DNA from: Owenia fusiformis
Taxonomy: Eukaryota > Annelida > Polychaeta > Sabellida > Oweniidae
Length of the DNA: 64,000 nucleotides
Reading direction: 5' to 3'
Assembly (NCBI GenBank): GCA_903813345.2
Contig: CAIIXF020000010.1
Span: forward strand, 13,957,181 to 14,021,180
The translations under genes were made by a program, and so were the position numbers. Shown in pieces: positions 7,313 to 51,800 of this stretch (the first letter of the stretch is position 1; each line of letters begins with the position of its first letter). The notes beneath the pieces were generated by a model. It searched no databases. It saw only the letters and a program-made list of their open reading frames with translations, and was not told the DNA's origin.

Positions 7313-7680
7313 CTGGGAATTGGTGTTCGCTTACACACAGGTGTTCAATAGAGTATACTCATATGTTCGCTGGGCACAGTATTTCACTAAAGAGATGTTC
7401 ATTATGACAGTTTTACTGTACTGGGAATTGGTGTTCACTATACACAGGTGTTCAATAGAGTAGACGCATGTTTTCACTGGGCACAGATCTTCACTAAAGA
7501 GGTGTTCATTAGGATATTTTTACTGTACTGAACTCACTGGCTGGGACGGAATCGGTGTTCACTATAATATACACAGGTGTTCAATAGAGTAGAGGCATGT
7601 CACTGGGCACAGATCTTCACTAAAGAGGTGTTCACTATGACAGTTTTACTGTACTGAAATCAATCACTGGGAATTCACTA
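7313..7680. repeat. tandem repeat, about 3 units of 108-127 bp
   Basis: Units begin CTGGGAATTGGTGTTC (or a variant) at 7313, 7421, 7541 and 7668. Each unit contains CAGGTGTTCAATAGAGTA and ends in a TTTTACTGTA motif, the terminus of the adjacent MITE. The array therefore seems to have arisen by amplification of MITE-end sequence. Confidence 0.65.
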
Positions 7681-8754: not shown

Positions 8755-9303
8755 TTGAATATACATGCCCGGGATACATGCATTATCAGCAATAATCATA
8801 CTTGACGCAAATCGTCAATTAAATTATGTCAAACACCAGTACAGCACCGAACATCACCAAATAACACATGGATGTCGACTGAAAAATAGACAAAGACCGT
8901 GGGAGACACAGGTTGGAAAATGAAGGTTGCTATAGAATGGCATGAGACTACGATTACAAACTTCAATCATGAGGACTCCATGGCGAGTGCATTGAATGAA
9001 CACCTAACAAACAAGAGCTTTGAATCTATTGGTGTCTTATAATTATTGAACCCTCAAGGATTTTATCTTGTTACAGCATTATCCAACGCAGCCGGTGGAG
9101 CTATCAACTTCTAATACCAAATAATTTCCCTTTACTTTTCAAGATCAACGTAATTGAGCGGTATGTATCTAAATAAAAACTCCATATCCTGTATTTACTC
9201 GTTATAAAACTTCCTTTACATTACGTCCAACGTCACCGTCGTAGCTTACTATGTATGTACCAAATATTTGCATACTTAGCAAGCGAGCATCAATGCCACT
9301 AGA

Positions 9304-9488: not shown

Positions 9489-12366
9489 CACACAATGATA
9501 CGCATCTGTCAAAAATCAAATATCAATCGAATTTAATAAAGCATAAAAAATATGTATTTACCAGAGCCTGAAGTCGAATGTGCATGCCGTGCAACTCGAC
9601 AAAGTGAAGTGAATATTCCTTCAAGACGTCGTCCGCAATATTCAATGTTAACACGTCGACCTGGGACATTAGTCTTGTAAACGTTCCTCGCAAATAACCT
9701 TGTTCTATTCGGCCTTTGTGTCGCTCTCAAATCCTCCGTTTACGTTGACGACTGCAGAAAGCTTTCTTAACAATTTTGTTTATTTTGATGAAAGTAATGG
9801 GACATTCCGGTACAAATGCATTTATTAATTAATCGGGTAAAGCTGATACTATATCCATGTTTCTTAGAATGTGTTACAGTTTCTTCTTTCTAGGTCCCAC
9901 ATGTCCTGCTTCTCAGTACAATACGAGTATATAAAATAGTGGTATATTTTAACACGGCACCTTTACGATGTCCTACGTACTCTTTACTCTTTAATGCAAC
10001 TTGAGAACTAGGAATGTCGTAGAATTGTGTTTAGAATACAAATACCAGAGATTGTTTTTTATTTCATACCTATAAAGTTGATGCACAGATTGCGTCGGTG
10101 GGTTTTAAATTGCCCGCATTTATAGGCTTAATGTCAACACTGTACTCGTGTATGGGATTAAGAATAATGAATTGTCATAATCCACTTGGTTATATCTTCC
10201 TTTCTTTGTCAACAGACACAATTCTCCAGCCTAAAAATATAAAACAGCAATGAAACGCCTTTATTATATATTTTTAGCACACCGTGATTACACTGTGATT
10301 GATTTCAAAGTCATTTAAAGTATCAGTGGATGTTTTCACTTACCTATATCGCAAATCCATTTCTAGACCTCCACTAGAACCAAATTACTTTCCAGTAGTG
10401 ACGATTGACAACAAATAGATATAATAGTAGTTACTGCCTTTAAATAGTTCGTCAACTTGGTCTCGTCTGAGAAATTTAATTAATTACCGGGATTGGCGTA
10501 ATTACAACAATTCCAGATAGAGCAGTGGGGTATTGAGAATTATGACTGTGTTAAACATAGTAAAATAAGTAGATCATATGCAACCAGGGTATAAAATGTA
10601 TATTCGAAAGATTTAAATGGCTATCTTACTGCTCAATTATCTCACTTGAATCGTCCATATGCAATATACGTAATCTAATAGTTATATTGAATTTCAGTTT
10701 CTTTTATTTTCACTTAGACCCTGGATCTTGATAATAAACAACATGAAATAAAAACTTACCTCAATTATCTGTCACTATAATTCTCAGTGTTTGAATTTTA
10801 ATTATGTTTCTTCGTAACACTCCCCCTTGTTAAAAAATAGTTTGTCCTCGGAATTCATCATTTAGTAACGATCCAAGATGCGCATTAATAAAACCATAGC
10901 TATAGATTAATGAACTTATGATTGAATTTATTGATGTAGTAATTAGCTCGAGGTGTTTTGATTCTCCTAGTGAAGTTTGATATTTCTACTCTAAATGACA
11001 GCGATATAAAACGATCAGATGTTTATAGGCTGGCGCTCTTGAGTGGGCATTGATCGTATAGTCATGGTCGCTAGCTAAATAAACCCAATGGGAAGTTGGA
11101 AAGTAACGGATCTCTAATTGTTCATTTAATATCTAACTCGTGTAAGTTTTTAAAGGTACATACATTCTCGCTCTAGTTATTTTTTGACATTCTGAAAATT
11201 TTGCAATGATTATGATGATAAAGTACAAGGGGTAACATAAGAACAATTATTAAAATACAAACCGTTGATATAAGCTAAAACAAGACTCGAAACTGTTTAG
11301 GGTTTAAAGGGTCCTGTTTTCAATACAAAACGATAGTTTTTAGCTCACATGGTGAGCTTTTTTAATGCATGGGATAGCTTAAGACAATGGACCGACGTTT
11401 ACACGTTGATCACGTCCATGGGCAGATTAATTTTTTATCTATTTTCCATGCATTACATTAACAAAACCTTTGATACCATTACCAACCAATATATTTCCAG
11501 TAATAATGAGTTACTTAACCGTGTAATTATTTAAAATACTTATAAACAGTTTCAATAATTTTCTTACATCTATGATCTACATCGTTGTTTCATGATTTTG
11601 GAACAATGAAGAAAATATGAAACAGAGAAGTCACCGGTGACTATATATTTCACACATTGTGTACACATATTTGCACAATCGGATTTTTATTAGTCTGCAA
11701 TAAAGCATTAAGTACAGAATCTGAATTTTTGTAACTATTTTGCCTTTGATCCTACACTGACAATCTTAAATAGATCGAGACGGCGATCTTGGAAATTTTA
11801 ATTCAAAGTGGTGGCCCACGCCAGGTTTCTATTTTATAATTCAATTTTGAAACCTCAAAAATGTGACAATAAAGAAATTTGTCTTATTACCCACGCGCAA
11901 ATTTGAAATAAGTCTTTCTTACAGATAAAATCGCCCGGAAAGTATTGGTTTATCCTGATTAAGAGGAAACACGCATTTTTCTATTAAGCCGTCTGTAATT
12001 AAGTTTAGTGCGTTGGTGTCAGCTGAACCCGAGCTGAGTTGCCTAGGTAAGTAGGACTCTATAACTCATTTTAGCTCCCACACAAGCACGTTAACTGAGG
12101 AAATATCCCGTATCATCAGAGTAAATCCTGCATCCTACAGTAAAACATTTGTAACACGTCCATGGCCATGGCTGAGTGTCACGAACTAGTTAAACGAACC
12201 CCATTCTTTTTACCCTACCAAACGAAGTGCGAGGGGGGAGGAAAGCTATAACTCAAAATAACTCAAATACCATTCGAAGGATTTGATTCTTTATATGCTT
12301 ATGCCTTATGGGAGTAGAACCTCTGCTCGTGAAGATGGCAGCTGAATTTCAAAATGGATGTACACG
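9489..12366. other. intergenic, no gene seen
   Basis: About 2.9 kb without a supported gene. The part at 9540-9760 is less AT-rich and has an open minus frame that runs into a possible splice donor (CTG|GTAAAT near 9561), but nothing recognisable is encoded. From about 12240 to 12366 there is a copy of the GATGGCAGCTGAATTTCAAAATGG repeat also seen at 17400-17700; the next element has inserted into it. Confidence 0.4.
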
Positions 12367-13165
12367 CACTGGGGAGTATCGTGATGCAACAACACCGTGT
12401 TGTTGCATCAAGATGGCCAAACTTCCGATGATAGATTTTCGTACGATTTTTGTTTCCCCAATTTAAACCCATTTCTAGGACGAGTTGCTCAATAACCATA
12501 CACGTGCAGTTAGCGCACGATCTATATTTAAAGAAACTGTCATTAGTATACATGTACCATCACCAAGAAGCAATACGTTCACGGTTTTAGTTCCTCACTA
12601 TTGATGCAACAACACCAAACCGAAGATGCAACAACACTCCTCTAGATTTGAGCAATGATGCAGCAACACCAATTAATAGTATAATTTCAGGAGACCATAA
12701 ATCTCGAGAGGAACAGATTTTTAAATGCTACTATTGCAACACCGTTACCCATTACCCATATTTCCGTTCTTCTCAAGGCATTCAAAATACACGTCCTGCG
12801 GGCGAAGATCCTTTATATTAGGTATTTTCAAAAACTTATAATATTATATATTATAATGTACTGGACGTTGTTCTATGACATAGTTCAATCGCCTTTAACA
12901 TGGCAAGCTTTAGTAACCCAATCTATTTTCATAAACCACTGTTCCATAGCTTGATGACCTTGACTCCAGTTAGTATCATTCAAAATGGTGGACAAACATC
13001 TTTCGTTCTCGGTAAACATGACGAGCTATTGGAAATCATCTGTCATCCATCTATGGAACAGTGTATAAACTAGTATATGTACGTTACCACTGTTTATCAA
13101 ATTATAACTAAAACAGTTTAACTGTGACATTCGTGAGCTTATGTTGATGGGATGATTGCTTCATC

Positions 13166-13250
13166 TATGATATGATATGATATGATTCTTTATTTCCCCC
13201 AATTTGGAGAGCCAACGTGTAAAAACAACTAATTGACTTTATTAGAGAGG
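13166..13250 (-). repeat. possible non-LTR retrotransposon 3' end with TATGA microsatellite
   Basis: On the minus strand, GGGGGAAATAAAGAATCA runs into repeats of ATATC. The LINE at 15944-17222 ends in a similar way (GGGAAATAAAGATATAATAATAAT). This is probably a short 3' remnant of a related retrotransposon sitting inside the larger DNA element. Confidence 0.35.
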
Positions 13251-13566
13251 CCGTTTGGTTACACGTTTAATGGAAATCTTGCACGACGCACATGTAGAAT
13301 TATTGCTCTCTTTGGATTCCTTCTCTCCGACTGAGAAAAAAGGTATTGTCTCTCGGAATAAAACCAATATTGAATCCCTCTCAGTAAATAACCTTTATAT
13401 ATTAGCATTGTATAACTGCAATATCATTAAACCAACACTCATCCTATATACATCTCTTGAGAATGATGTACAACTCCTGGATAGCGTAAACTCCTGAGCA
13501 GCGTATACTCTTCAACTTGATATATGACATCATACTTTGGATGGGATAACAAAGGATATACAATAT

Positions 13567-13710
13567 ACAATTGTAGACCTCTCTTAAGGTCAACTGGCAA
13601 AACTGTATACCGATACTGTAAACCTTGAAAGTTCTGTTGATCAAGACCAGATGTCGAGGACATTTTTGCCAGTTGACCGAAAAGAGAGGTTAACAATTGT
13701 TCTGTTAGTC
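13567..13710. repeat. hairpin module, copy 1
   Basis: Begins ACAATTGTAGACCTCTC and ends GAGAGGTTAACAATTGTTCTGTTAGTC-like sequence; GGTCAACTGGCAAAA near 13588 faces its complement near 13665. The module is repeated at 13924-14076. It is an internal part of the 12367-15095 element. Confidence 0.6.
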
Positions 13711-13923
13711 CAAATAATATAATAATTGGACGAATATATAATCGAATTTCACGTGAACATATTTTATAAGTAAAGGTATCATATTTTAGCAAAAAATCCC
13801 CAAACCGTCGAATGCTTGTAATTTTTTACACAACTTATTTTTTCAAAATTAAAAAAAATTCAACATTAAAAAACAATTTTTCAAAAATTGCGGTCAACAG
13901 TATCTAGTAGTGGTCAACAGTTT

Positions 13924-14076
13924 ACAATTGTTGACCTCCCCAGAGTTCAACCGGCAAAATTGTATACCGAGGCTGTAAACCGAAAATCTACTGTTGACAG
14001 AGACCGAAGTTTACAGTCGAGGTATATGATTTTGACGGTTGATCTAATGGAGAGGTCTACAATTGTTCTGTTAGTC
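13924..14076. repeat. hairpin module, copy 2
   Basis: A diverged direct repeat of 13567-13710, with the same order of motifs (ACAATTGTTGACCTC, CAAAATTGTATACCG, ACAATTGTTCTGTTAGTC). GGTCAACAG motifs are also scattered just before and after it (13891-13925, 14335-14430). Confidence 0.6.
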
Positions 14077-15100
14077 TGAGTAAACTAATACACATATAGA
14101 CGACAATCATCAATCGGCATGGCTTCATTTCACAACCTTTTCTCCGAACCACGTTAGCAATATTTTTTTTAGAAAATCTGGAGACAGTGCAAGTAGCTTA
14201 TCTATTTCAGTATTTGGCACATCACGGCGTACTCGTTAGTGAATTAATGTTAATTTTAAGTTTCTATTTGTATTTTTGCTATACTTGTCGCCTAGTAAAG
14301 TCATTTTCATCAATGTTTACAACAGTACCTAGTAGCGGTCAACAGTACATAATTTTGACCGCTAATCAACCAATCAGAATCGAGTATTTCTGTTGAGGTA
14401 CTAACAATACATTTTGTTGACCGCTCATCAACCAATCAGAATTGAGTATTTTGAGGTACTAGCAACACAAACTGACTGATATCTGTTGTCTTTCCAAAAT
14501 TATATAAGTTATTTGTAAACAATATCCATACGGTAAATCAAGGGCATTTAATTTAGAAAATGTATAATCTTTATTTTTCAGATACAATATCAATGAGACT
14601 GCCTCCCGGGGATTCAGTATTTTATTTAGTTTGCCTTGTATATCCTTTTAACTTTGATATAGACAAAGAAACCAAACAAAATACGTTTCGTTCATGGACC
14701 ACTGACTCACGCGTTTTATTCATGTCCCGACCTACACCTGTAAACAGAACATAAAACAGTTTCTCTTGTTGTTCAATGATACATTATATTGGCGTTTTTG
14801 CATCAGCACATTGGTGTTGTTGCATCATCGATAAGAAACAGAGCGGTGTTGTTGCATCAATAGTGAGGAATTAAAACCACGAATTTATCGCTTCTTGATG
14901 ATGCTACATGTATACCAATGACAGTTTTTTAAAATATAGATCATGCGCTAACTGCATGTGTATGATTATTGAGCAACTCGTCCTAGAAATGGATGTAAAT
15001 TGGGAAAACAAAACATCGTACGAAAATCTATCACCGGAAGTCTGGCCATCTTGATGCAACAACACGGTGTTGTTGCATCACGATACCCCCCAGTGACACG

Positions 15101-15943: not shown

Positions 15944-17222
15944 ATTATTATTATTATATCTTTATTTCCCATTATTCATGGATCATTTTACAACGTAGTT
16001 ACAGGTTAATAAAGTGTATAAAAATTTTCAAACGAAGGTTGTTTTTGTTTTGTTTTTAAAAATGGTAGTTATTTACATCATTTATACATTTATGTTGAGC
16101 AGAAAGCTCTAACACCTTACATTATTATCGCTTTAATCTGGAAACGCTGGAACCAATGAGATTCCGTTTACAAAAATCAATTTGTGTATTTGTGGCAAAA
16201 TTTTACTTAATGCTGCTATTTTGTCGCTTGTGTCTTCATCAGCGTCGCGGGGGTCACATACTAAGTCGTCCATGGTCATACCTTTGCAGACAGCATCACA
16301 GCAGCATTGAAAGAGTAAATGATTTACTGCATCTTTAAATAAATTTCCGCATTTTTCACATAAATGATTGGTTTCTTTGTCTTCAGGAAGTGCTACTAGT
16401 TTCGCTAGTGTGTAACAGTATTCTAATAGATGCGGATGTTTTTGACCAGTAGTCCATATGATATTGTTAGATAATTCGACTTTGGTCAACCTTAGAGTGC
16501 TGATGCTAGCTTCAACTTGTATTTGAACGTTATTTTTACAAATCAATTTCCATAGTTTTGTTGGGGGAAAGTACCCGTCATCTACGTTTTTGAATCAATA
16601 GGGAATTCTGGTGTTTAGATTCACCGAAAGATTTTTGCAAAACGCCATTTCTTAGAGTAGATTATGGCAGTTTGAATCAACGTATCAAGGCTAAGCTTAG
16701 TGTTGGCCAGAATAGAGATGTCGTCGGCGTAAGTTGGATTTCCACATAATATGGTACCCATCTGTGTGCATATGTTTGAGCGTTCTAAATTACATAATAA
16801 TTCATCTATGTACACTGTGTAGAGCCAGCCAGCAAGAATACTTCCCTGACGGATAGATTGCTTTATAGGGAACCAGCTGCTTATGTTGCCTTTAAAAATA
16901 ATTGCACCCTGCATTCTTGAGTACAGTTTTCTTAAGACGTGCCATAGTCTACCTGTTATTCCAATGTTATGAAGTTTGAAAAAGAGGCCATCGTGCCACA
17001 CCGAATCGTAGGCCTGGGTACTGTCCATACATGCCATGAATGTCTTTTGGTTTAGTTCATCGTTATAACGTACAGTCTCTAGAACGTTAAACGAGCAAGT
17101 GACGCTGCACATGTTAGGAGCGTAGGCATTTTGCTGGTTGCTGTTTAAGTACTTACAATTGTTTCTGGTTTCACTCTCAAGTAAGCGTTGTCGAACTAGT
17201 TTTTCCCATAACTTTTCCAACG
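15944..17222 (-). pseudogene. 5'-truncated non-LTR retrotransposon (reverse transcriptase remnant)
   Basis: Two minus-strand frames, 16621-17220 and 16133-16546, together encode the C-terminal part of a LINE-type reverse transcriptase. Visible blocks are the catalytic motif A region (MDSTQAYDSVWHDGL), motif B (QSIRQGSILAGWLYT) and the YADD box (PTYADDISILA). The second frame has a Cys/His cluster (LCEKCGN...HLLFQCCC) of the kind found after the RT domain in many LINEs. A frame change separates the two parts, and the N-terminal RT, endonuclease and any first ORF are absent. The 3' end is AATAAAG followed by an ATA/ATT microsatellite (15944-15960). It is a dead copy; the clade (CR1/Jockey-like or another) cannot be fixed by eye. 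Confidence 0.85.
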
Positions 17223-17329
17223 CTCAAAGCTGAAATCAGCCCGTATTTCCCGAATTGTCCCCAGGTCCGTGCACGTCATAACGGCATTTTTCGTAAAATA
17301 GCGTCATCATTATCATTGATAACTCAAAT

Positions 17330-21720: not shown

Positions 21721-23223
21721 TTACTTATAAGCTACCAAGGCAAGGTTTCTTGGCGAAAGTTGAGAGTCAAAGAGGGGAATAATATGACACTGAAGTCCAT
21801 GTTCCTTCAGGAACAGTACCCTGTCAATAAGTATGAAGGTTTCCACAACAGGTCCAAGTGAGAGACGTAGCATGTTAAATGCACCATAGTTTCTCCATTT
21901 TGCAGACAAAGATTCCACAGTTTCAAGATCAGAATCTGTGAGATTGGCATCCAGACCTAAATGTTCCAATCTTGATGTGATGTAGTTCACTAGGTTTTTA
22001 TTTTTCTTAAATGACTTGTTTTTTGTACATCGAAGTTTTGCAGTTGCATCTGGGTTTCGTTTTTCAATAATTGTCTGCAATACAGCTCTGTAGCTCTGGA
22101 ATTTCACATCGCCAGTGCCATCTTTTAATTGTGCTGCATAAGAATCTATGGAATGGCATGCCAATTCTGCAGTTTCCCATGTCAATACTGGATTCAATCT
22201 TTTAACATAGCTACTGAGTGGGAAGCCAACATCAGAGCTTAGGGTCATTTTCATGTAACAGCAACCTACGACAGCAATAGCCTTTGCGCTGGGACAATTC
22301 ACAAATAATCGCAACATTGTTGGAATCAGATCCCCACAGGAGTGTAAGCCTGTTAGTACAAAATGACCAGATGAGTCTAGATTTAATGACTTTGCGAAAC
22401 TACTGGGATCAACAGATGGCTCTATATAATGAACAATATGATTAGGTAGATCATTTTGTTGGTCATTGCAGACATCCTGATCATTCTTATTTGATATTTT
22501 ACCATTTTTCTTTTTTATATCTTGTTGTACTTCTTTATCAAATTGTTGAGCTTTAGGAGCATGTGAGGAAGCAGATTCCACAGTAGTGACCTTGAGCCCA
22601 TATCCAAATGTAAGCAGTCTTGACAAGTGACCTTGACCTGCTCCCACATCTACAACATTGTCGCAGTCTACCGATTTACAAATGTTATGAATGAGCTTAG
22701 ATAAGCGATGTATCTCATGTTGTTTCTTTGGTTTTACATGACGCCTGAAGCTGTGCTCTAACTTAAGATATTGGCCATTAAGAATAGCACCCTTTTCCTC
22801 TTTGTCATTTTTGCTTAGTCCATTGGGATCATTTGTTTGTGAATTGTTGAATAAGGATTCAGTTTTGATTGGAGTCCTTGGTAATGAGTAACACTGGGTA
22901 GCAGCTTTGAATGATAGCAAAGACAACGGCCATATATCTTTTTTTCTAGGATCACATTCCATGAAGGTATTGTTGATGAAACAAGTAAGTTCTTTTGGAT
23001 CTCTGTCATTCAGAACCTTGCTCCATTTGGGGTTCAATTCATCCCATAAATCATTTGTAAAAAAATCTGACATATAGGCATTGGTAAGCCATTGATATTG
23101 GGAAAGCAGTTTATGACATGATTGAGCGATATATGTAAGATCAATCTTAGAGTTTTCGTTTGAGAGAGAATCGATATGTTTACTTTGCTCCATCTCATCA
23201 GCAGATGGCGCAATTTGAAGCAT
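21721..23223 (-). CDS. METTL25B: METTL25B/RRNAD1-like methyltransferase
   Basis: A 500-residue SAM-dependent methyltransferase-like protein of the METTL25 family; the human relative is about 475 residues. Its substrate is not settled; the old name RRNAD1 reflects resemblance to rRNA adenine dimethylases. Visible landmarks: an N-terminal helical region with FFTNDLW (54-60) and WPLSLLSFK (98-106); the family signature HVKPKKQHEI (162-171); the SAM-binding glycine loop VVDVGAGQGHLSR (190-202); TGLHSCGDL (291-299); VGCCYMKM (319-326); and a C-terminal LSPRNLALVA (489-498). All align with the human protein as I recall it. An in-frame TAG eight codons upstream of the ATG fixes the start. The frame has no intron, whereas the human gene is split. 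I saw no poly-A tract or flanking duplication that would prove a retrocopy. The gene is divergent from the noggin/trunk-like gene. Confidence 0.93.
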   Translation of the reverse strand: MLQIAPSADEMEQSKHIDSLSNENSKIDLTYIAQSCHKLLSQYQWLTNAYMSDFFTNDLWDELNPKWSKVLNDRDPKELTCFINNTFMECDPRKKDIWPLSLLSFKAATQCYSLPRTPIKTESLFNNSQTNDPNGLSKNDKEEKGAILNGQYLKLEHSFRRHVKPKKQHEIHRLSKLIHNICKSVDCDNVVDVGAGQGHLSRLLTFGYGLKVTTVESASSHAPKAQQFDKEVQQDIKKKNGKISNKNDQDVCNDQQNDLPNHIVHYIEPSVDPSSFAKSLNLDSSGHFVLTGLHSCGDLIPTMLRLFVNCPSAKAIAVVGCCYMKMTLSSDVGFPLSSYVKRLNPVLTWETAELACHSIDSYAAQLKDGTGDVKFQSYRAVLQTIIEKRNPDATAKLRCTKNKSFKKNKNLVNYITSRLEHLGLDANLTDSDLETVESLSAKWRNYGAFNMLRLSLGPVVETFILIDRVLFLKEHGLQCHIIPLFDSQLSPRNLALVAYK

Positions 23224-23795
23224 TTTGACAAGTCTATGAGTATCCTACTGGTTCGAACACCTGTTAGTTTATATATTAGTATAAGTATAATCTGTTGTTT
23301 GTTCCTGGGATGGTATTATTAGGAGTATGGTAATCACCAATTGTACTCCACAACATCATACATCACAAACACCTGGAAAAATTGTACATCTGTTATAATT
23401 TAGTTAACATTTGTCCAAGTTGTAGGATAAAGAAAAGAATTAGAATACTGATGTGCTTGTGAACAAAAGTTGAAATATAGGCAATCATACAGTACATGAG
23501 TACTCCACGCCTATTGTACATTTACATAGGGAATTACATTAGTTGGGGTACATTTTGTACTTTGAGATATTTCGCCCAGACAAAATATGGTGCAATCAAT
23601 TAAGTATGGCGAGACAAGTTTTCTTCCCATTTCTACAAGTTTCCTGTCGTCTCAGATTTCTACAATATGTCTATATTCAGTTGTAACACACATCCTAAAC
23701 AAGTGGATTGCCAAACCAAGAGCAAACTTACCAGTTACCAGTTATACTCAGTTTATTATTGGGCAAGGATAACATCACTCAGTGTACATGTAAAT

Positions 23796-24854: not shown

Positions 24855-26397
24855 GTTGTGAAGATATCAATTTTCGATGGCCAATGTATGCTGAAGACAA
24901 TGGATAGCATGAGTTTTCCCTAGGCTATATAACATGGCCGATTTCAATACCCATCTACCTTTCAGAAGTTGCTAATAGTGTAGAAGTTCCTCTTTTTAGA
25001 AAATAAGCCTAACATTTTTAAAAAAGTGATAAGATGCGTTCCTAATTTATAACTTTTTTCAGAGTGAGTTGGGTTAATATTTTTACGACTACCGGGGAAC
25101 TTCACATCGTCGGTTCCCACGCTCGATCACTACGTTCTATTGAGGATAGGTCCGAAGCTTGATAAAGCAAGATGGGAACTTCACCGGAAAGAACCTAGAC
25201 ATATTGTTTTTAAAAAACACTGTATTTATGACCAGAAAGTACTCATCGTTAAATTAAGTCCAAAATCACTTGCCATACAATACCTGGTCCTTTAACAATG
25301 ATGGCCCGAAATCACTTGAAAAGCAATCAAATTGGTAAAAAAACTGCATGCTTTTGAAATAATTGTTAACCTCGACCCCCCCCCCTCCGAATACCCCCCC
25401 CCCCACCCATCGGCTTGCCTACGGAACCTGAATTGTACTTTTATAACCAGTGTACTGCATGTGTATGCTGGTCGGCCTAACAGTATACCATGGACCTACA
25501 GAAAGTTCATACTAATACATACAACTACTGATCATGACTAGCACCATTACGAGCTATTAAAATGTATTTCTTGATCAAATTGACTAAATTGAATTTCAGT
25601 CCAATGTATTGACATTAGCAATATATTTGCTCACATCATTTACGTCGTTCCCTCGTCGTTCTTTCCCTTCCAGCTGTTACTGTACTTTAATAACTCCGTC
25701 AACAAATTTCTTTATAACCATCATATAAAAAGTATCAAACAAAGTTAAACACATTCATTTATTGGTCTTCAGTGTTTAAAACCTTATATACATGTAATAT
25801 TGCTTACACCGACTCTATTTTTGAATGAAATTAGGCTCATGAATCTTAACTAATCACAGTGCACCTAATTACTTATTGTTTCTTTGAGTAATGGTATTAT
25901 GCATATGTGAAACCAATGAGTAATAAAAATTAGAGCCAATTTGCAATTTTTACTGAAAATATATAAATGAAGCCATGCATTTATCTTTAAGTTCCACTGA
26001 TTTGTCATTTACATCATTAATGTTGATGTGCTCGGACAGACTTTTATAACGCTGCAAGTAACACAATATTTACCATTATAAGAAATAATTACAGGATTAT
26101 TCTGAAGAATTAAAGGATATACATGTACTAATTGGCATTGTGTTTGCGAAATTACATGTTGGTGACAGAACATATGACCAGTTTTAAAACTGTGAACAAA
26201 TGATCATGTGAATAATTTAGTGATATTAATGGACATATTGCGTTTATTCACAAGCTTAACACTTAATGGATTAACACTATACTATTACTACACGAATAAC
26301 GGTTCCTGATTTAGTTCCACCAAGACAACGAGAACTGAAGTTAACATATTGTTAGATGTCAACATGAGACGCAAACGCAATTCGCATCTTCTAAAAC

Positions 26398-27585
26398 ATG
26401 GGATGTAGTTCGACAAGTTTGGCCTGGTACACCATCTTATTTCTTTCAATGGCATTCTCGTCTGCAGCCCCAATATCGGAAATCAAAGATGGCAAAGATT
26501 CCCCATCAGAAGGCGATTCGTTCTTTGCGCAAGCCGTTCAATATAAACAGAGAATCTTCGTTGAACAAGAGCAAACAACAAAAGAGACAACAGTTAAAGA
26601 GAAAGCAAAGAAGAAACAAAAGGAAGATATATCTGGAATGGACAAAACTATTTTCAAAAAGACCGCCACGTTTCCTACAATGAAAATGGGAGGCAAAAAA
26701 CCGATTGCCAAAGCTACTAAAACTGTACATAGAAAAAAGGATCTCGGTATATTTGATGATAATTTCGACGAATATGATGATCTTGGAGAATATGATGACT
26801 ATCTCGATGGACTTAATGGGAAAAATATCAAAACAACAACTCCAAAACCTAAACCATCACAGAATTCAAATTTTGAAATGTTGAATGATAAAGGACCCGT
26901 TTCTCATAAACAGCGACATAAAGGCAGCAAACACTCTGTCAAAGTAGATTGTGAACCCACAAAGGTTAGAAAATTGTCAAAAATGCTCGGCCCTGCTTTT
27001 AATCCCCGATACATGTCAATCGAGAGGCCCACAGCTGGATTTTCCGGTTCTGCAATGACAGGGGTAAGCGGATTAGGAAAGGCACGTGATACAAGAGGAT
27101 TTATGAGAGATCAACCGTTGATTATAAAGAACATTTCGGAAGCCACACCACATCTGCCATTTAGAGTCTCTCATGATTTCAAAAGAGATCTTCCGAATGA
27201 GGGTAAATATACCACTGACACGAACAATGCCAAACCCAAAAATAGTGATATACCAAGTGTTTCGCACTTTCTAGAAAGTATAAGGACTAAACGATCGACG
27301 AACAACGATCAACCATGGCAATGCGCTTCTAGAATTGTCTGGTTCGACTTAGGTGACGATCATTTTCCACGATTTCTGAGAGCAGCCGAGTGTGTCTCTG
27401 ACAGGTGTTGGTTTTCTCATTACAAGTGTGTCCCAAGAGCTTTTACCGTCAAGGTACTTCGGAGATCGAGTGACACGTGCAAACCAGTCTCTCGCAAGGC
27501 ATCAAACGGGCCCCAACGGTTCGAGCAGGAATGGGTGTTCGAGGAGAGAGCTGTGACTTTTTGTTGTGATTGTGCTAAGAGTTAG
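26398..27585 (+). CDS. trunk: noggin/trunk-type cystine-knot ligand precursor
   Basis: A 395-residue secreted precursor in a single exon; an in-frame TAA at 26392 precedes the ATG. Residues 1-24 are a signal peptide (hydrophobic YTILFLSMAF, likely cut after SSA). A lysine-rich stretch (62-115) and an acidic tyrosine-rich patch (DDNFDEYDDLGEYDDYLDG, 120-138) follow. MLGPAFNPRYMS (196-207) resembles the noggin propeptide motif. RTKR (296-299) is a furin-type site that would free a 96-residue C-terminal domain with eight cysteines (309, 332, 337, 344, 361, 389, 390, 392) and VWFDLGDDHFPRF, close to the W-DLG-PR core of noggin and trunk. Trunk and PTTH activate Torso-type receptor kinases in insects; noggin binds BMPs. 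The processing site and spacing favour trunk-like; the role here is inferred. AATAAA follows at 27624 and 27637. Confidence 0.8.
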   Translation: MGCSSTSLAWYTILFLSMAFSSAAPISEIKDGKDSPSEGDSFFAQAVQYKQRIFVEQEQTTKETTVKEKAKKKQKEDISGMDKTIFKKTATFPTMKMGGKKPIAKATKTVHRKKDLGIFDDNFDEYDDLGEYDDYLDGLNGKNIKTTTPKPKPSQNSNFEMLNDKGPVSHKQRHKGSKHSVKVDCEPTKVRKLSKMLGPAFNPRYMSIERPTAGFSGSAMTGVSGLGKARDTRGFMRDQPLIIKNISEATPHLPFRVSHDFKRDLPNEGKYTTDTNNAKPKNSDIPSVSHFLESIRTKRSTNNDQPWQCASRIVWFDLGDDHFPRFLRAAECVSDRCWFSHYKCVPRAFTVKVLRRSSDTCKPVSRKASNGPQRFEQEWVFEERAVTFCCDCAKS

Positions 27586-33005: not shown

Positions 33006-35617
33006 ATGACACGTTGGGCCAGGGCTGAGGGGGTGAACAAGAAGAAGCCCTTAGAAAGCACAGAATGGTTAGTCATGTTTAAGTCAACCTCCCAAGAACA
33101 GAAGTCTCCAACAGATGATACAATATCACAACAAACCCCAGCCAAATCTAAAAAGAAACGGAAGGCTGAGAAACAACATAATAAAGATAGTGACATGTCC
33201 GACCAAAGTACAGGTGTATATAAAGTAGACATAGGAGAATCATTGGTTAAGAAAACCAAGCAATCAAAAGTTAAGACCCTAACTGATGAACAATACTTTG
33301 CTAAATTCACTAATCATCGTGAACAGAAGAAGAAAATGCGGACAATTGACCTGAATGACAAGCGTAGAGAAGAAAGGAGGATGAAAAGAAAGGAAGAACG
33401 AGAAGGAAAAAAGGTAGAAATTCTAACTTATAAGTGAGCATACAGTAATGTTAATATCATATGTTACAGTTAATATTTTGAAAATTCCTCTTCGATTTAC
33501 CACTCAAAATTAATGCATTTATAAAAGCTCAACTTTTTCCAACACTCACTATAAACTCACTTAGTAATTGTTGAGAAACCTGAACCCATTATATCTCATT
33601 TTCCATTATCTGAGGCTTTAGGCCCATAGGCTGCTCTATTGTGGTTACATAATGGATGATGGGGTTCTCAAAGGGTAAACATTTTGGCAAATTATTGAAT
33701 TGAATTACTCCAGGTGTGCTTTAACTGTCGGAAGCTGGGTCACAATCTTGCAGACTGTCCAGATATAAAGGGGGATTCAGAACAGGGCACTGGTATCTGC
33801 TTCAAATGTGGCTCCACAGAACATACATCTAGCCAGTGTAATGTGAGGCTCAAGAAAGGTGAGATATTGTGATATAGCTCTTCCACTTGATATACTATAG
33901 TTTCTAAGGGTTTTATAAGTTCAAATCCTGCCATTCGTGCTTTCTAAGATAAAACTAATTTGCTACATGTGTTGATTGTATGTTATATTCTTATTGCAGG
34001 AGAGTATCCATTTGCTAAATGTTTTGTGTGTGGAAAGATGGGCCATTTGTCCAAGAAGTGTCCAGATAACCCAAAGGGACTCTACCCCAACGGTATGTGA
34101 AAATCCATTCTCCAAAGGCATCGCTCTTTTGATTCATCTCTGCAAATGGCAAAATTAGTTTAAATATTTTAGTGACATATTTTACTGAAGTTATGATTGA
34201 ATATTATAAGGGAATATACATTTTATGGTCCCATAAAGATTTATGAATTTTATTTTATGTTCACATTTAAGCAAGTCATGTCCCAATTTCTATAGGCTAT
34301 GTTTATGCAGACTGTCAAAGTTAATTCTATAATGTGCACTTTTCTATTGTGAATTCCCCCAAAAAATAAAAAATGTACATTTGGCACTGCAGGAGATTAT
34401 TGCTTATTCAGCCATATGTTTCTTGTAATGTTACAGGTGGGTGTTGCAAGGGATGTGGATCAATACACCACTTTAAAGCAGAGTGCCCAGTGCTACTGAA
34501 GAAAGAAGGTAAGCTTGTTGTTTGTCCTTCTGTCTGGGCAATAGCCCAAGTTCCTGGATGGAAGGTGCACAAATGACCACATGTTTTTCAGAAGAAATTT
34601 TCTTTAGTATAACGCAAGAATTTGGTGCAAATTTTATAGGCTAATGCCTTGTGGGCATACTTTTCGATAAGGAATTTAAAATATGGCGTTGTCATGGTTG
34701 TAGATTTTGACAGGAGACTATACATTGTTTACTACTCCCTACATATCATATCACCACCAGAAGTGGGGACATATTATAGTCTCCAACTTTTTTGTGGATG
34801 GTTCTGGTGTTTCATGGTTGGCTTCAGTAACAAATGAAAAACTTACAAGGTGATGACATTTTGTCGTGTTAATAGACTATAATGCCTCATTTCTATAATG
34901 TCATGTTCAGATAACATGTTTTTCAGTGGGATGTGCTATTCTTGGGAGTAGCTGTTCAAATAACTGATCAGCTATTGAAGTACATACCATTGAGAGTAAC
35001 ACTAATACCATTGAGAGTAACACTAATACCATTGAGAGTAACACAAATACCATTGAGAGTAACACTAATACCATTGAGAATAACACTAATACCATTGAGA
35101 GTAACACAAATACCATTAAGAGTAACACAAGTACCACTGAGAATAACACTAATACCATTGAGAGTAACACAAATACCATTGAGAGTAACACTAATACCAT
35201 TGAGAGTAACACAAATACCATTGAGAGTAACACTAATACCATTGAGAATAACACTAATACCATTGAGAGTAACACAAATACCATTAAGAGTAACACAAGT
35301 ACCACTGAGAATAACACTAATACCATTGAGAGTAACACAAATACCACCGAGAATAACACAAATACCATTGAGAGTAACACAAATACCACTGAGAAAAGCA
35401 CAAATACCATTGAGAGTAACACAAATACCATTGCGAGTAACTCAAAAACCACTGAGAATGCAGTAACACAAATACCATGGGAATTGTTCTGATTTCAGGA
35501 ATAATTGAAACTACAGTTGAGAAGATGGCAGTTTTCACAAGCCCGGACATTGAACCTTCACTTACAATAACCAGCAAACAAAAGAAGAAATCTGGACCCA
35601 AACTAGTGAAATTTTGA
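33006..35617 (+). CDS. ZCCHC9: ZCCHC9, CCHC zinc-knuckle protein
   Basis: Coding exons: 33006-33413, 33714-33858, 34000-34092, 34437-34508, 35499-35617; all junctions are GT-AG and phases join to 278 residues. The product matches human ZCCHC9 from end to end: start MTRWAR, a basic middle (KKKRKAEK, DKRREERRMKRKEER), then four CCHC knuckles: CFNCRKLGHNLADC, CFKCGSTEHTSSQC, CFVCGKMGHLSKKCPDNPKG and CKGCGSIHHFKAEC. It ends GPKLVKF, like human PKVVNF. ZCCHC9 is a nuclear/nucleolar nucleic-acid-binding protein; yeast Air proteins, with similar knuckles, serve the TRAMP RNA-surveillance complex. The start lies directly after an acceptor, so the 5' UTR is split. Intron 4 (34509-35498) carries a 21-bp minisatellite. 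AATAAA is at 35713. Confidence 0.95.
34977..35466. repeat. 21-bp minisatellite, about 23 units, 168-bp higher order
   Basis: Unit ATACCATTGAGAGTAACACTA with few variants (CAAATAC, GAATAAC, ACCACTGAG). The order of variants repeats every eight units (168 bases), so the array grew by block duplication. Because 21 is a multiple of three and no unit has a stop, long frames are open on both strands (34933-35466 plus, 34907-35452 minus), but these are by-products. The array lies in intron 4 of ZCCHC9. A good acceptor (TGTTTTTCAG, ending 34926) precedes it, but joining exon 4 to it gives a stop before the array. Confidence 0.95.
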
Positions 35618-45800: not shown

Positions 45801-48800
45801 GGTAGTGGGGGGATAGATGGAACAGCCGATGCCTCTGGTGGCTGTGCCCCAGGTCTGTCATTGTAATAGTCAGGATCATCACCCCATTGTGAGCCCCACA
45901 TAGATTGAGCTTCATTGCCAAATACTGGATTTTCAACTCTGTAAAATAAAACATGTTCCAGTGCTAGTTATTGATTGCTCATATTGCTCACAAGAAACCT
46001 AAAAAAAGGTGCAAATTCACCTTTTCTTGATCATTCTTTCTAAAATTCGGGCCCATAGCCTAGATATTATAGATTAATTGTGACAAATTCTTAGGCCTTT
46101 TTGTCTTCAGGCCCTTTTTTGTCAGAATTTTGGCATCACCATTGTTTAGGTCCCAGCTATGGTGGAGGAACATGGCTCACCCCACCTTATTAAAGGATAA
46201 AGGATGAATATTACACAGGGGTTTCATCAGCAGCAGGCAACAGGCAGTTTTCACCGGTTGTTTTCACAAAATCGCCTGTTTTTTAGGGACTTTTCAACTT
46301 TTCCATGTTAAATTCATAATTTCCATTAATTTTGCCTATTGTTTTCATTTATTTAGCCTGTTGTGAGAAATTCTAATGAAACCCCCATTACATACTTAAC
46401 AACATACAACTTTGAAACTATTATGATTATTATTCATTGACATCTTACCTGTCAGGTAACTCTATTGGTTTGGCTTGATTTTTCAGAAATTCTTTAAATC
46501 TCAACTCGAAGGCCTGTCCTATAGTAGTTATAACATCTTGAGCAAGTCCCCCTCCACACTCTAAAACATGACAAGCACGCCCATGGATCGGATCTTTTGC
46601 TATGTACGCTACAAAGTCCATTGTGTCCTGTAAAAAGTAATAGGAAATTTAGAGCTATATCACAATAAACAAAATGTGAATACTTTTTCAGCTTTTTTAT
46701 AGAAATTTAGAATCTTAGAATTTCAATTCCAAAAGTGTTAATATCCTTTTTTCAAATTTCCCTCTTCTAGATATATCATGACCTCAAAGAGTGTAATGTG
46801 AGACCTATTACGGGGGGGGGGGGGGGGGGGGGGGGGGGGGTGATGTTGATTTTTGGTTTCTTTTCATCAGGCTATGAAGATTTATATGTTCTGTTGATTC
46901 ATTTTCCTTACACTCTGAATATATGTATTTCAAAACATGACCATTTTCACAGTTGGTTATATTCATGATTCTAACTTACCGGATCGCCGCCTGAAGCAAA
47001 CGATATCCCTGGCATCACATGCTCAGCAATCAGCTGAAAGAAAAGAAACATTCACTCATGTTATCCAGGACAAGGAGACAGAATTTACAAATGTTCAATT
47101 TGTGTGCAAGCAGAGTAGTCTGTCATAATGGTTTCTAGACCAATATAATATGTCAATAGGGAGTTTAAGCTTGCATGTAAAATCGAAAAACCAATCTATA
47201 CATTTCACCAATTGCCCATACAAATGCATCGCTTAAATATTTTCCATTCACACTTAGGTTGTGAAAAACATTGCAAGCTTAAACTCCCTAATATCTTGTC
47301 TTATTGTTGTTACTTACAGTTCAAATGTACTTTCTGAATGCTAAACAATTGCCCAGTTTGACACATATAGTACTATATATGAAAGTAACTGGCCATTGCA
47401 TTAGTATTTGCCTTGGGAACTTTTGTCAACTTGGTTTAATTTTTACCAAATCTGTCTCAGAATGTCTTGGACATTCACTTTGTACAATAGAGATGTCATG
47501 GAACAAAAAAAATCGGAACGGTTCAGAACATTTTGTTTCGGAATGGAACAATTTCGGAACGGTTCAGAAGAGAGTGACTGTGTGTATTGGATTAAAATAA
47601 GTTGATCATCTCGGTCTATTTGGTAGTGAAAAGCTTTTCAAAGCTCTTCAAGGAAAAGGAGTGAAAAGAATGAATGCAAAATATTGAAAGAAAGCAGTGA
47701 AAGGGTAAGATTTTCTTTTTCGGGAACCGAACAGAAATACTTAATTTTTGTTCCATGTTCCAAAATTGGGTATTTGTGACACCTCTACTATGTAGTAACA
47801 TATGACTGAACATGACAGTGTGTGTACAACCTTGGAATAAAGCGATTTGCTAGCTATAATATATGCCATTTTGTTATAAACTGATGTCAATATTGATGTT
47901 ATCATCAGAAACATCAAATTGTAAATAAATCACTATGGTGAGAGACTATACAAGCAACACAATGCAAATTGGAGATGTACTTAAGGCTGCTAGGCAACAG
48001 TTAGACGAGTCCATAATTAAAGCAAGCTAGCTACTTATTTTGACAGTGTGACTAGAAATCATCTTCATGACTAGAAGTCAGATTAATATCAAACCAAGCA
48101 TTCTGGGATCATGAGAGACTTAAATGAGAATTCTGGGATCTTACCTCTGCTGATTCCATAATCATGAGAGAAAGACTTTCTATGGTGATTGTCAGATTTA
48201 TATTGAAGCCAGCATTCTGCATGATTGGCTGGTTACCAAGAAGCTTTGAAACCTTCTTATCCTGCAAGAACATAAATTGTACCAATGGTGTCAATTGTTA
48301 CAATTATTCAAAACTAAGACAGTTAGTGACAGCCACAACCTAAACGTTAAAAATAGGAAGGCCAAAGAATTAGTGGAATCTGTCTATAGTTAGATAAACT
48401 GAAGTAATGTAATATGAGAAAGTGATTGTTTTAACTTAATAGGCTACAATACATGTCTATTTATCTTTTTGTCATAGGGAGCACCGTTAGCCTTGTGAAA
48501 CCAGAAAAATGTTAAATGCTACAAGTTTGAAAAATAAAACTTTTTTTGGCTTGAAATAGTAATAGATATCCTCTTGGGTTCTTGTTTTCTGACTGATTAA
48601 TAGATTTATAGAGTCACACTGAAATAGCCTGACAATGGTAAAGTCAGACACTGTTGTCACTTGGTCCTCATTTCATTTCATCATTTTCATTTTATCCTCG
48701 CTAATTCTGTGCAAGTATTAAGCTCTTGTGATGGTGTATCATATGAAATCCCAATTTTGATCAAATTGGTATCTGACTTTACCATTGTCAGGCTATTCCA

Positions 48801-51800
48801 GTGTGAGAGTGTTACATATGATTCCCACAATGTCAAGATTTAATCTGCATGAGTTACATCTTTTTAGAACTAGACCATGAGTACCTTTATTTCCCTCACA
48901 TAGTATACTAGAAGATAGAAAATACTCCTGGGTCAGAAGTTTCAGGAACAATGGTTGTGATTTAAAGGTTCAACCCTCAATCAAGAATAAATTGTTAAGA
49001 ACAATGTTCATCTAAATTTTTTTACCTTTTTCTTTTTAGTAGCTGTTTTAAGACCTGCGGCATCACACACTCTGCTTATGGATTCTCTGCAATTTAGGGA
49101 ACGTGTATGCAATCAAAAAACATGTGAATGTAATAAAAAACATGTGCTGTCTTATTCAAGATGACATTCTTAAAGTACAATGAAAACTATTGAAGGTGTT
49201 AAGTAGTTATAATATACTAGTGTTGTCGCGATGTGCCATAATCTTACATCGATGCATCGGCAATTTTCAGTAGTAAACATCGATGCACATCGCGATGTAC
49301 ATCGAAAAAAAGTTCGAGAAAAGTGCACTGAAATACGGAACGCTAATGCACTAAAATACCAAACACCCGGTACATCCGGGAACATAGTAACGGTGAAATG
49401 AAAGTAAAGTAATTTTTTTAGATTAATGGATCATTTCGACTAGCTAAAACAGTTTTAAAGCGAAAGAATATCAGAAAACATTTGAAAATGAAACAAGACA
49501 TGAAAAAAGGTAAGCAATTTGCGTCAAAATAAGATAAGAAAGGGCGATTTTTAGCAAATTAAATTTTTTTAACAAGGCATTAACATGACAAAATGTCACC
49601 ACCTAAAACAATTTGGTCAATTTAAAGCAAGTTGGAAAATACCTTTTGACCTTAAGAAGAACTTCTGAGAACATGTAGATGATTTTGAAAAAAAAATTAG
49701 TCAATTTGAAGCAAGTTGAAAAAAGACCTTTTTGACCTTGAGAAGGTCATTGAAGGTCAAAGGTCAAATCTAAAGTCAGATTTGAACTTCTGAGAACTTG
49801 TAAAGTCAAATTTGAACTTCTGAAAAGATGTAGATGATTTTGAAAAAAAAATTTGGTCAATTTGAAGCAAGTTGAAAACAGACCTTTTTGACCTTTTTTG
49901 ACCTTGAGAAGGTCATTAAAGGTCAAATGTCAAATCTAAAGTCAGATTTGAATTTCTGAGAACATGTAGATGATTTTGAAAAAAAAAATTAGTCAATTTG
50001 AAGCAAGTTGAAAAAAGACCTTTTTGACTTTTTTTTACCTTGAGAAGGTCAAATGTCAAATCTAAAGTCAAATCTAAAGTCATATTTAAATTTCTGAGAA
50101 CATGTAGATGATTTTGAAAAAAAAATTTAGTCAATTTGAAGCAAGATGAAAAAATACCTTTTTGACCTTTTTTGACATTGAGAAGGTCATTGAAGGTCAA
50201 ATGTCAAATCTAAAGTCAGATTTGAATTTCTGAGAACATGTAGATGATTTTGAAAAAAAAATTTAGTCAATTTGAAGCAAGTTGAAAAAAGACCTTTTTG
50301 ACCTTTTTTGACTTTGAGAAGGTCATTGAAGGTCAAATGTCAAATCTTAAGTCAAATCTATAGTCAGATTTGAATTTCTGAGAACACGTAGATGATTTTG
50401 AAAAAAAAAATTAGTCAATTTGAAGCAAGATGAAAAAATACCTTTTTGACCTTTTTTGTCATTGAAGGTCAAATGTTAAATCTAAAGTCAGATTTGAATT
50501 TCTGAGAACATGTAGATGATTTTGAAAAAAAAATTTAGTCAATTTGAAGCAAGTTGAAAAAAGACCTTTTTGACCTTTTTTGACTTTGAGAAGGTCATTG
50601 AAGGTCAAATGTCAAATCTTAAGTCAAATCTAAAGTCAGATTTGAATTTCTGAGAACACGTAGATGATTTTGAAATTTTTTTTTAGTCAATTTGAAGCAA
50701 GTTGAAAACATACCTTTTTGACCTTGAGAAGGTCATTGAAGGTCAAATGTCAAATCTAAAGTCAGATTTGAAGGTCAAATGTCAAATCTAAAGTCAGATT
50801 TGAATTTCTGAGAACATGTAGATGATTTTGAAAAAAAATTTAGTCAATGTGAAGCAAGTTGAAAAAAGACCTTTTTGACCTTGAGAAGGTCATTGAAGGT
50901 CAAATGTCAAATCTTAAGTCAGATTTGAATTTCTGAGAACACGTAGATGATTTTGAAAAAAAAATTTAGTCAATTTGAAGCAAGTTGAAAACAGACCTTT
51001 TTGACCTTTTTTGACCTTGAGAAGGTCATTGAAGGTCAAATGTCAAATCTAAAGTCAGATTTGAAGGTCAAATGTCAAATCTAAAGTCAGATTTGAATTT
51101 CTGAGAACATGTAGATGATTTTGAAAAAAAATTTAGTCAATGTGAAGCAAGTTGAAAAAAGACCTTTTTGACCTTGAGAAGGTCATTGAAGGTCAAATGT
51201 CAAATCTAAAGTCAGATTTGAAGGTCAAATGTCAAATCTAAAGTCAGATTTGAATTTCTGAGAACATGTAGATGATTTTGAAATAAAATTTAGTCAATGT
51301 GAAGCAAGTTGAAAAAAGACCTTTTTGACCTTGAGAAGGTCATTGAAGGTCAAATGTCAAATCTAAAGTCAGATTTGAACTTCTGAGAAGATGTAGATGA
51401 TTTAGAAAAAAATTGAAGTCAGTCTAAACAGTATTTGTTAAGTTATAGGAAGTTGTAAGAAATTGTTACAGACGCCGGACGCCAACCACCAACCGCCGTC
51501 GCAAAAAAACGGAGACCATAATAATATGTCATCACTTTTTGGTGGTGACATAAAAACATCGATGTTTTGTTTCAGACATCGATGCATCGCCAGAACCAGC
51601 TTTGGCAATGTATATCGCGATGTATCGATTAATCGCGACAACACTATAATATACATGTAAATGTATTGCTTTGGTAATTTAAAACCTATTTCTTCAAAAT
51701 TAACTTTTATATGAGTTGGGTTATTGCTGAAATAATTCTTACTTTGCAACAGCTGTCCTTGTGTCAAAGTCAAGTGTTCTCATAGATTCCTTCACCTCCA

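Follow-up and report, generated by a model that had tools for sequence, protein, structure and literature searches.

Several described kinds of DNA transposons come close to the element considered here. RAG-like transposons of protostomes have terminal inverted repeats (TIRs) with the consensus CACTWMCAAACKTYKBB and invariably 5-bp duplications, according to the available part of their description (PMC7204232), and among hAT transposons two described groups, hAT5 and hAT6, have 5-bp and 6-bp duplications, respectively, in the part available of another source (PMC12730594). We studied a CAC...GTG-ended element in a 64-kb stretch of the Owenia fusiformis genome (64,000 nt of contig CAIIXF020000010.1; this whole stretch is referred to as the window). 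The element very probably belongs to a young, apparently non-autonomous family of inverted-end transposons that numbers about 300 copies and would be mobilized in trans by a separate transposase. It inserts exactly, with 5 or 6 target bases duplicated; what sets the family apart is this mixed duplication, together with a C^A...T^G target locked to its register.

An earlier reading of the letters of the window (the sequence-only reading) had described a CACTG-ended element with approximately 250-bp inverted ends, flanked by 5-bp direct repeats and carrying near both ends a 14-mer that also forms a head-to-head palindrome. All of this is borne out: we are dealing with a genuine DNA transposon that has inverted ends and CAC tips, as follows.

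12362–12366, no strand: left target-site duplication ACACG, same letters as 15096–15100
12367–15095, no strand: whole element, an inverted-end DNA transposon, apparently non-autonomous, 2,729 bp, recognized by its tips, inverted ends, flanking duplication and the genome-wide family of tips
12367–12616, plus strand: left inverted end with the tip CACTGGGGAG ("A type"), 91.6% identical to the right end over 251 columns
12378–12414, no strand: subterminal palindrome of the left end, formed by two 14-mers head to head, its 18-nt arms separated by 1 nt
12603–12670, plus strand: three more 14-mers of the left half, starting at 12603, 12625 and 12657, with 0, 1 and 1 mismatches
12680–14790, no strand: body common to most sampled copies, with no transposase match in the scanned frames
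14791–14858, minus strand: three more 14-mers of the right half, mirroring the left set, starting at 14791, 14813 and 14845, with 2, 0 and 0 mismatches
14846–15095, minus strand: right inverted end with the tip CACTGGGGGG ("G type"), from the alignment to the left end
15048–15084, no strand: right subterminal palindrome, two head-to-head 14-mers
15096–15100, no strand: right target-site duplication ACACG, same letters as 12362–12366

The element tips are CACTGGGG, and a spacer of 15 bases, as had been stated, separates the first seven bases from ACAACACC in the window copy. With at most two mismatches allowed, the 14-mer GATGCAACAACACC has 10 sites in the window, all of them within the element and five per half (four exact, the remainder with one or two mismatches), and in 100 shuffled controls the mean count is 0.54 and the maximum, 3. 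The array is mirrored, with a head-to-head pair in the palindrome starting from position 12 of each end, and three further 14-mers at about positions 237–305 of both ends.

The genome search suggested by the sequence-only reading yielded a large family. Exact 17-bp tips are found in the 498-Mb genome at least 567 times (66 + 88 + 146 + 176 + 91, with 0 in the control of each search), and a 30-bp tip with at most three mismatches, at 625 genome sites (control, 0). Division of the tip count gives about 300 copies. Over the first 314 bp, the window element is 97–98% identical to 39 other copies, which were the top-scoring ones among 749 candidates; this points to a young family, or to youth of at least those members that match best. 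The 452 distinct ends listed, from which about a quarter of all family ends are absent, form 165 head-to-head pairs with a median length of 2,907 bp. Copies shorter than 4.2 kb were sampled at their centres (n = 20); in 16 of the 20 a shared body is recognized, with at least 340 of its 501 bp aligned, and the remaining four (L099, L102, L107, and L113) have little or no shared body. No exact match to the 30-bp tip is found in prokaryote genomes, nor to the 27-bp palindrome in viral contigs.

Perfect duplications flank all 38 complete copies compared, 22 of them being 5 bp and 16, 6 bp long, with no ambiguous cases; of 1951 random pairings of flanks from unrelated copies, 40 show a 5- or 6-bp match. 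Besides the window copy, the set comprises 20 short copies located on contigs C1 and C2, five long copies, two copies with nested retrotransposons, eight more, and two within L078; outside it are the two outermost ends of L078, a short L086 copy whose tip is mutated and which has AGAGT on either side, a remnant in L085, and nine copies opened only inside. Duplications of 2, 3, 4 or 8 bp, named in advance as evidence that would speak against the original assignment, are absent from the 38 copies. The CMC group (CACTA/EnSpm, Mirage, Chapaev) shares the CAC...GTG tips, but has duplications of 2–4 bp, while our family never has less than 5 bp (0 of 38). For EnSpm families, 3-bp duplications are given in the available part of PMC12730594.

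The duplicated bases contain 11% G+C vs. 33% in the flanks (36 copies pooled). A GC-containing duplication had been pointed out earlier; this is true for the window copy and does not hold for the family, and the window copy is atypical, since the pooled duplications are AT-rich. CA is read at 44 of 76 cut half-sites (background 7.6%), vs. one of 76 positions at the alternative spacing (6 for the 5-bp case and vice versa), so the CA steps shift register with the duplication length. The resulting target consensus is C^AWWW(W)T^G, with CA-W3-TG corresponding to 5-bp and CA-W4-TG to 6-bp duplications, so that a single enzyme apparently recognizes a pair of CA half-sites spaced 5 or 6 bp. A phrase search of the open-licence PMC literature, which would miss other wordings, has revealed no report of a "5 or 6-bp" transposon target site duplication, and nothing relevant on a CANNNTG target has been found there.

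Exact insertion is directly seen in one filled and empty pair, as the comparison of filled and empty sites proposed earlier gave one empty site, located in the window itself:

48698–48769, minus strand: un-inserted copy of the repeat hit by the family copy L045 (empty site), with a single AAATT, not two

At the junction, L045 and the window repeat are identical in 67 of 73 positions with one gap; L045 carries AAATT twice with the element in between, and the window repeat carries it once, which demonstrates an exact insertion with a 5-bp duplication. The right end of L045 (about 9159–9225) also contains an additional partial repeat of the subterminal palindrome, which suggests recombination between repeats. 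That the window stretch is immobile, representing chance inverted repeats or a segmentally duplicated region, would be compatible with the single atypical site of the window copy and with nothing beyond it; given hundreds of tips, 38 copies each with its own perfect duplication, and the empty site, we consider this explanation negligible.

These data also bear on the proposal that the element is a non-autonomous member of the Transib/RAG group. The tips start with CAC (in the window copy; the 50 ends compared were selected by a CAC-starting pattern), the duplication is 5 bp in 22 of the 38 copies, and the subterminal ACAACACC, in our reading, recalls the nonamer. RAG and Transib targets are GC-rich, whereas the target bases here are AT-rich, following C^AWnT^G, and 16 of the 38 duplications are 6 bp long. 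Compared with the Transib and RAG-like transposons, as far as the available parts of their descriptions go (PMC7204232, PMC8355894), the family moreover has long mirrored ends, with the consensus CACTGGGGRGTATCGTG, and no linked enzyme; its tip agrees with the protostome RAG-like consensus no further than CACT and also departs from the AAA expected there at positions 8–10. Apparent non-autonomy is thus retained from the original proposal, and the Transib/RAG assignment is disfavoured by the two-length, AT-rich target, the 6-bp duplications, and the tip CACTGGGGRGTA, unlike the RAG-like consensus; kinship with this group is probably absent, and membership in it seems improbable. This case cautions against classing elements by a single duplication, as the window copy alone appeared Transib-like.

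We assign the family to no superfamily. By duplication length, the nearest described kinds are the hAT5 and hAT6 groups introduced above, and derivation from one of them, with a hAT transposase acting from elsewhere in the genome, is the likeliest of the assignments considered, if on balance doubtful. At least 138 genome matches to the hAT dimerisation domain are observed (150 of 183 candidates scored), many of them in open frames. However, none of the 134 domain matches on contigs C1–C12 is inside any of the 165 listed pairs, about a quarter of the ends being unlisted, and the matches are no nearer to the ends than random positions (two within 15 kb vs. a mean of 1.97; 315 ends). For 20 of the 138 matches, the 3' flank (2.2 kb) contains only scattered one-mismatch tip 8-mers, none adjoining a 14-mer. 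Moreover, hAT tips follow the consensus YARNG with A or G as the third base, and hAT ends are usually short, while the third tip base of the window copy is C and the ends of the family are long, about 250 bp. In the available part of PMC12730594, each described group has one duplication length; both lengths being found within one family, it fits neither the hAT5 nor the hAT6 definition cleanly.

The length of the ends brings in other known superfamilies with long inverted ends, for example the MuDR-like elements, an assignment that we find somewhat unlikely. Long ends are typical of MuDR-like elements; however, CACTGGGG is not a usual MuDR tip. The MuDR-like elements, together with IS256, are reported in the available part of PMC10045372 as making 4 to 10 bp duplications, a range covering both lengths seen here. 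The same part of this source describes IS481EU from parabasalid hosts, with an enzyme similar to retroviral integrases and with duplications of about 4, 15 or 25 bp; there are thus several lengths in one family, as here, but they are not neighbouring, unlike our 5 and 6 bp. It also gives TA..TA tips for IS3EU, and TA..TA or TG..CA tips for GingerRoot, different from the CAC..GTG tips of our family. Dada elements, in turn, insert in small-RNA genes and, as given for Dada-U6 and Dada-U1, have no terminal inverted repeats, by the available part of PMC3706591, while our family has 250-bp inverted ends, and the window, the one site compared with RNA genes, contains no Rfam match. The family tips also differ from those of Ginger (TG) and Polinton (AG).

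The sequence-only reading had named an undescribed group as its alternative. An undescribed eukaryotic DDE superfamily, with an enzyme reading two CA half-sites with flexible spacing, is in our view unlikely, though less so than kinship with Transib/RAG. The combination of CAC...GTG tips, 250-bp mirrored 14-mer ends, and two register-locked duplication lengths matches none of the superfamily descriptions compared, as far as their available parts go, and the open-licence PMC literature searched yielded no paper that mentions CACTGGGG along with a transposon and inverted repeats. On the other hand, no enzyme is in hand, and the distinction is drawn from open-licence literature descriptions, with Repbase and Dfam outside the comparison.

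Conservation of the ends points to the sequence that may be recognized by the transposase. In the second arm of the palindrome (positions 31–44, beyond the selecting 30-mer) only two of 700 letters vary among 50 ends, and both belong to the rearranged right end of L045; at positions 45–60 of the same ends, 18 of 800 letters vary. In 37 longer ends (42 minus five with weak alignment, one each from L045, L046, L085, L086, and L050–L051), two of 1591 letters vary at positions 18–60 vs. 396 of 9582 at positions 61–320. Being near-invariant between copies, the palindrome seems to be under the kind of constraint expected of a binding site, and its position and near-invariance fit the earlier suggestion that the 14-mer may be a transposase binding site; we infer that the 14-mer palindrome is the putative site.

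The following mechanism is proposed. The transposase would bind the GATGCAACAACACC palindrome, with the first 14-mer from position 17 of each end, pair the ends, and then cut the element out. Each 3' end (...CAGTG-OH) would attack one C^A step, one per target strand, and, if the half-sites are read more strongly than the distance between them, such preference of the enzyme would explain why both 5- and 6-bp staggers are in use; gap repair would then convert the stagger into the duplication. Taken further, to an undescribed superfamily whose transposase joins DNA at a pair of independent C^A half-sites, with either 5 or 6 bp allowed between them, so that the target dictates the duplication length, the proposal is tentative and rather unlikely. 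Duplication length serves as a label of transposon superfamilies, and here one young family shows two lengths that differ by a single base pair and have separate C^A...T^G registers to which they are locked, which suggests that the target sequence can choose the stagger. The structure of the source enzyme, if found, would reveal how two target spacings are accommodated.

Several observations weigh against a family moved in trans by one enzyme of this kind. CA half-sites are present on both strands in only 10 of the 38 sites, on one strand in 24, and on neither in four, among which is the window copy. Sampling of the 38 copies was by convenience, with 28 located on C1 and C2, and 36 joined sites compared with the fetched DNA gave one empty site. 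Because exact patterns (17- to 30-mers) served to choose the ends, conservation at positions 1–17, and often 18–30, is built in. The inner 14-mers are unevenly conserved: at positions 236–250, none of 285 letters vary on the left and 19 of 270, on the right; at 291–304, 14 of 266 on the left and 27 of 252, on the right; and positions 259–304 of right ends vary by 11–13%. Finally, neither an autonomous copy nor a transposase was found in the scanned frames of the opened copies, so non-autonomy, movement in trans, and the class of the enzyme are inferences.

A source enzyme was sought in the 24 head-to-head pairs longer than 4.2 kb, of which 23 were opened (14 whole and nine interior only), the one left unopened being 25 kb long on C7. 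In a set of 24 loci, 133 complex frames of at least 70 aa lay outside the shared body, with long frames elsewhere in addition; 28 selected frames were scanned, one of them, from L102, originating from the centre sample. No source transposase was recognized in the 23 opened pairs by means of the scanned frames, nor the full-length relative with a transposase or RAG1-like core that the sequence-only reading proposed to look for; as only these frames were scanned, an enzyme that is split by introns, damaged or not covered by Pfam may have escaped, and a rare autonomous copy may exist, as about a quarter of the ends are unlisted. The RAG1 domain PF12940 has no match in the genome and none in 14 control genomes either, so this result, obtained with no Transib model, leaves the absence of the enzyme unproven. 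In the window element itself, 10 of the 11 overlapping open frames of at least 60 aa were scanned, with no transposase and only two Pfam matches, both at the chance level (E about 0.07); the eleventh frame, 12299–12559, was outside the scan.

The opened pairs contain nested retrotransposons, a mariner-like gene, and a reverse-transcriptase fragment; the rest is unidentified DNA. L050–L051 carries a nested long terminal repeat (LTR) retrotransposon with 2.6-kb direct repeats 99.9% alike, and an open frame with a weak Ty3-capsid match under the Pfam cut-off, with no long pol frame among those listed; judging by its repeats, it is a very recent insertion. A 1,363-aa frame in L052–L054 is read by eye as an LTR-retrotransposon polyprotein, L096 contains a mariner-like transposase, and L091, a reverse-transcriptase fragment. 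Two apparent long pairs were rejected: the outer flanks of L078, seemingly a 14.8-kb pair on C7, match at no length, and it consists of two copies, each with its own duplication, while an apparent 5-kb pair on C1 is the tip of another repeat family joined to a short copy.

Some further details were observed within the family. Only one exact 17-mer (C3:26085481) differs from the 14-mer at each of the four positions tested, and this site is a head-to-head remnant of 43 bp in all, without a duplication (L085, 5766–5808), possibly left by excision or deletion. Within the body of the window element, a 500-bp stretch (13567–14066) has perfect 17-bp inverted ends (ACAATTGTAGACCTCTC) and holds degenerate internal repeats of this end unit; perhaps it is a nested element of greater age that the transposon family now carries with it.

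A separate repeat family with the pattern CACYGGGGCGTATCGAAACC (118 ends) was considered as a relative and rejected, since its true ends begin further out (TCACGCGGTACTAACT...) and its duplications are 3 bp, making it a different element. The two copies read (L086, 104–608, and L087, 102–953) end in TCACGCGGTACTAACTCACYGGGGCGTATCGAAACC and have the duplications TTA and TAA. Its inner sequence mimics the CACTGGGG tip, 13 to 14 bases out of the initial 15 being the same, but 11 of these, plus the preceding T, were fixed by the search pattern, and the remaining likeness is put down to chance. A short tandem array at 7313–7672 of the window, whose unit contains TTCACTGGGCACAG, is also superficially tip-like, which we take as coincidence.

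Other features of the window include a 396-aa frame at 26395–27585 (plus strand), by eye secreted-looking, with a cysteine-rich C-terminus and no Pfam match at E 0.001; a reverse-transcriptase fragment (RVT_1) at 16621–17223 (minus strand); and a frame with a methyltransferase domain (Methyltransf_32) at 21721–23244 (minus strand). Two arrays are also present, a 21-bp minisatellite of 22.6 copies at 34984–35457, open in several frames, and, at 49659–51412, a satellite-like array whose units measure about 136 bp.

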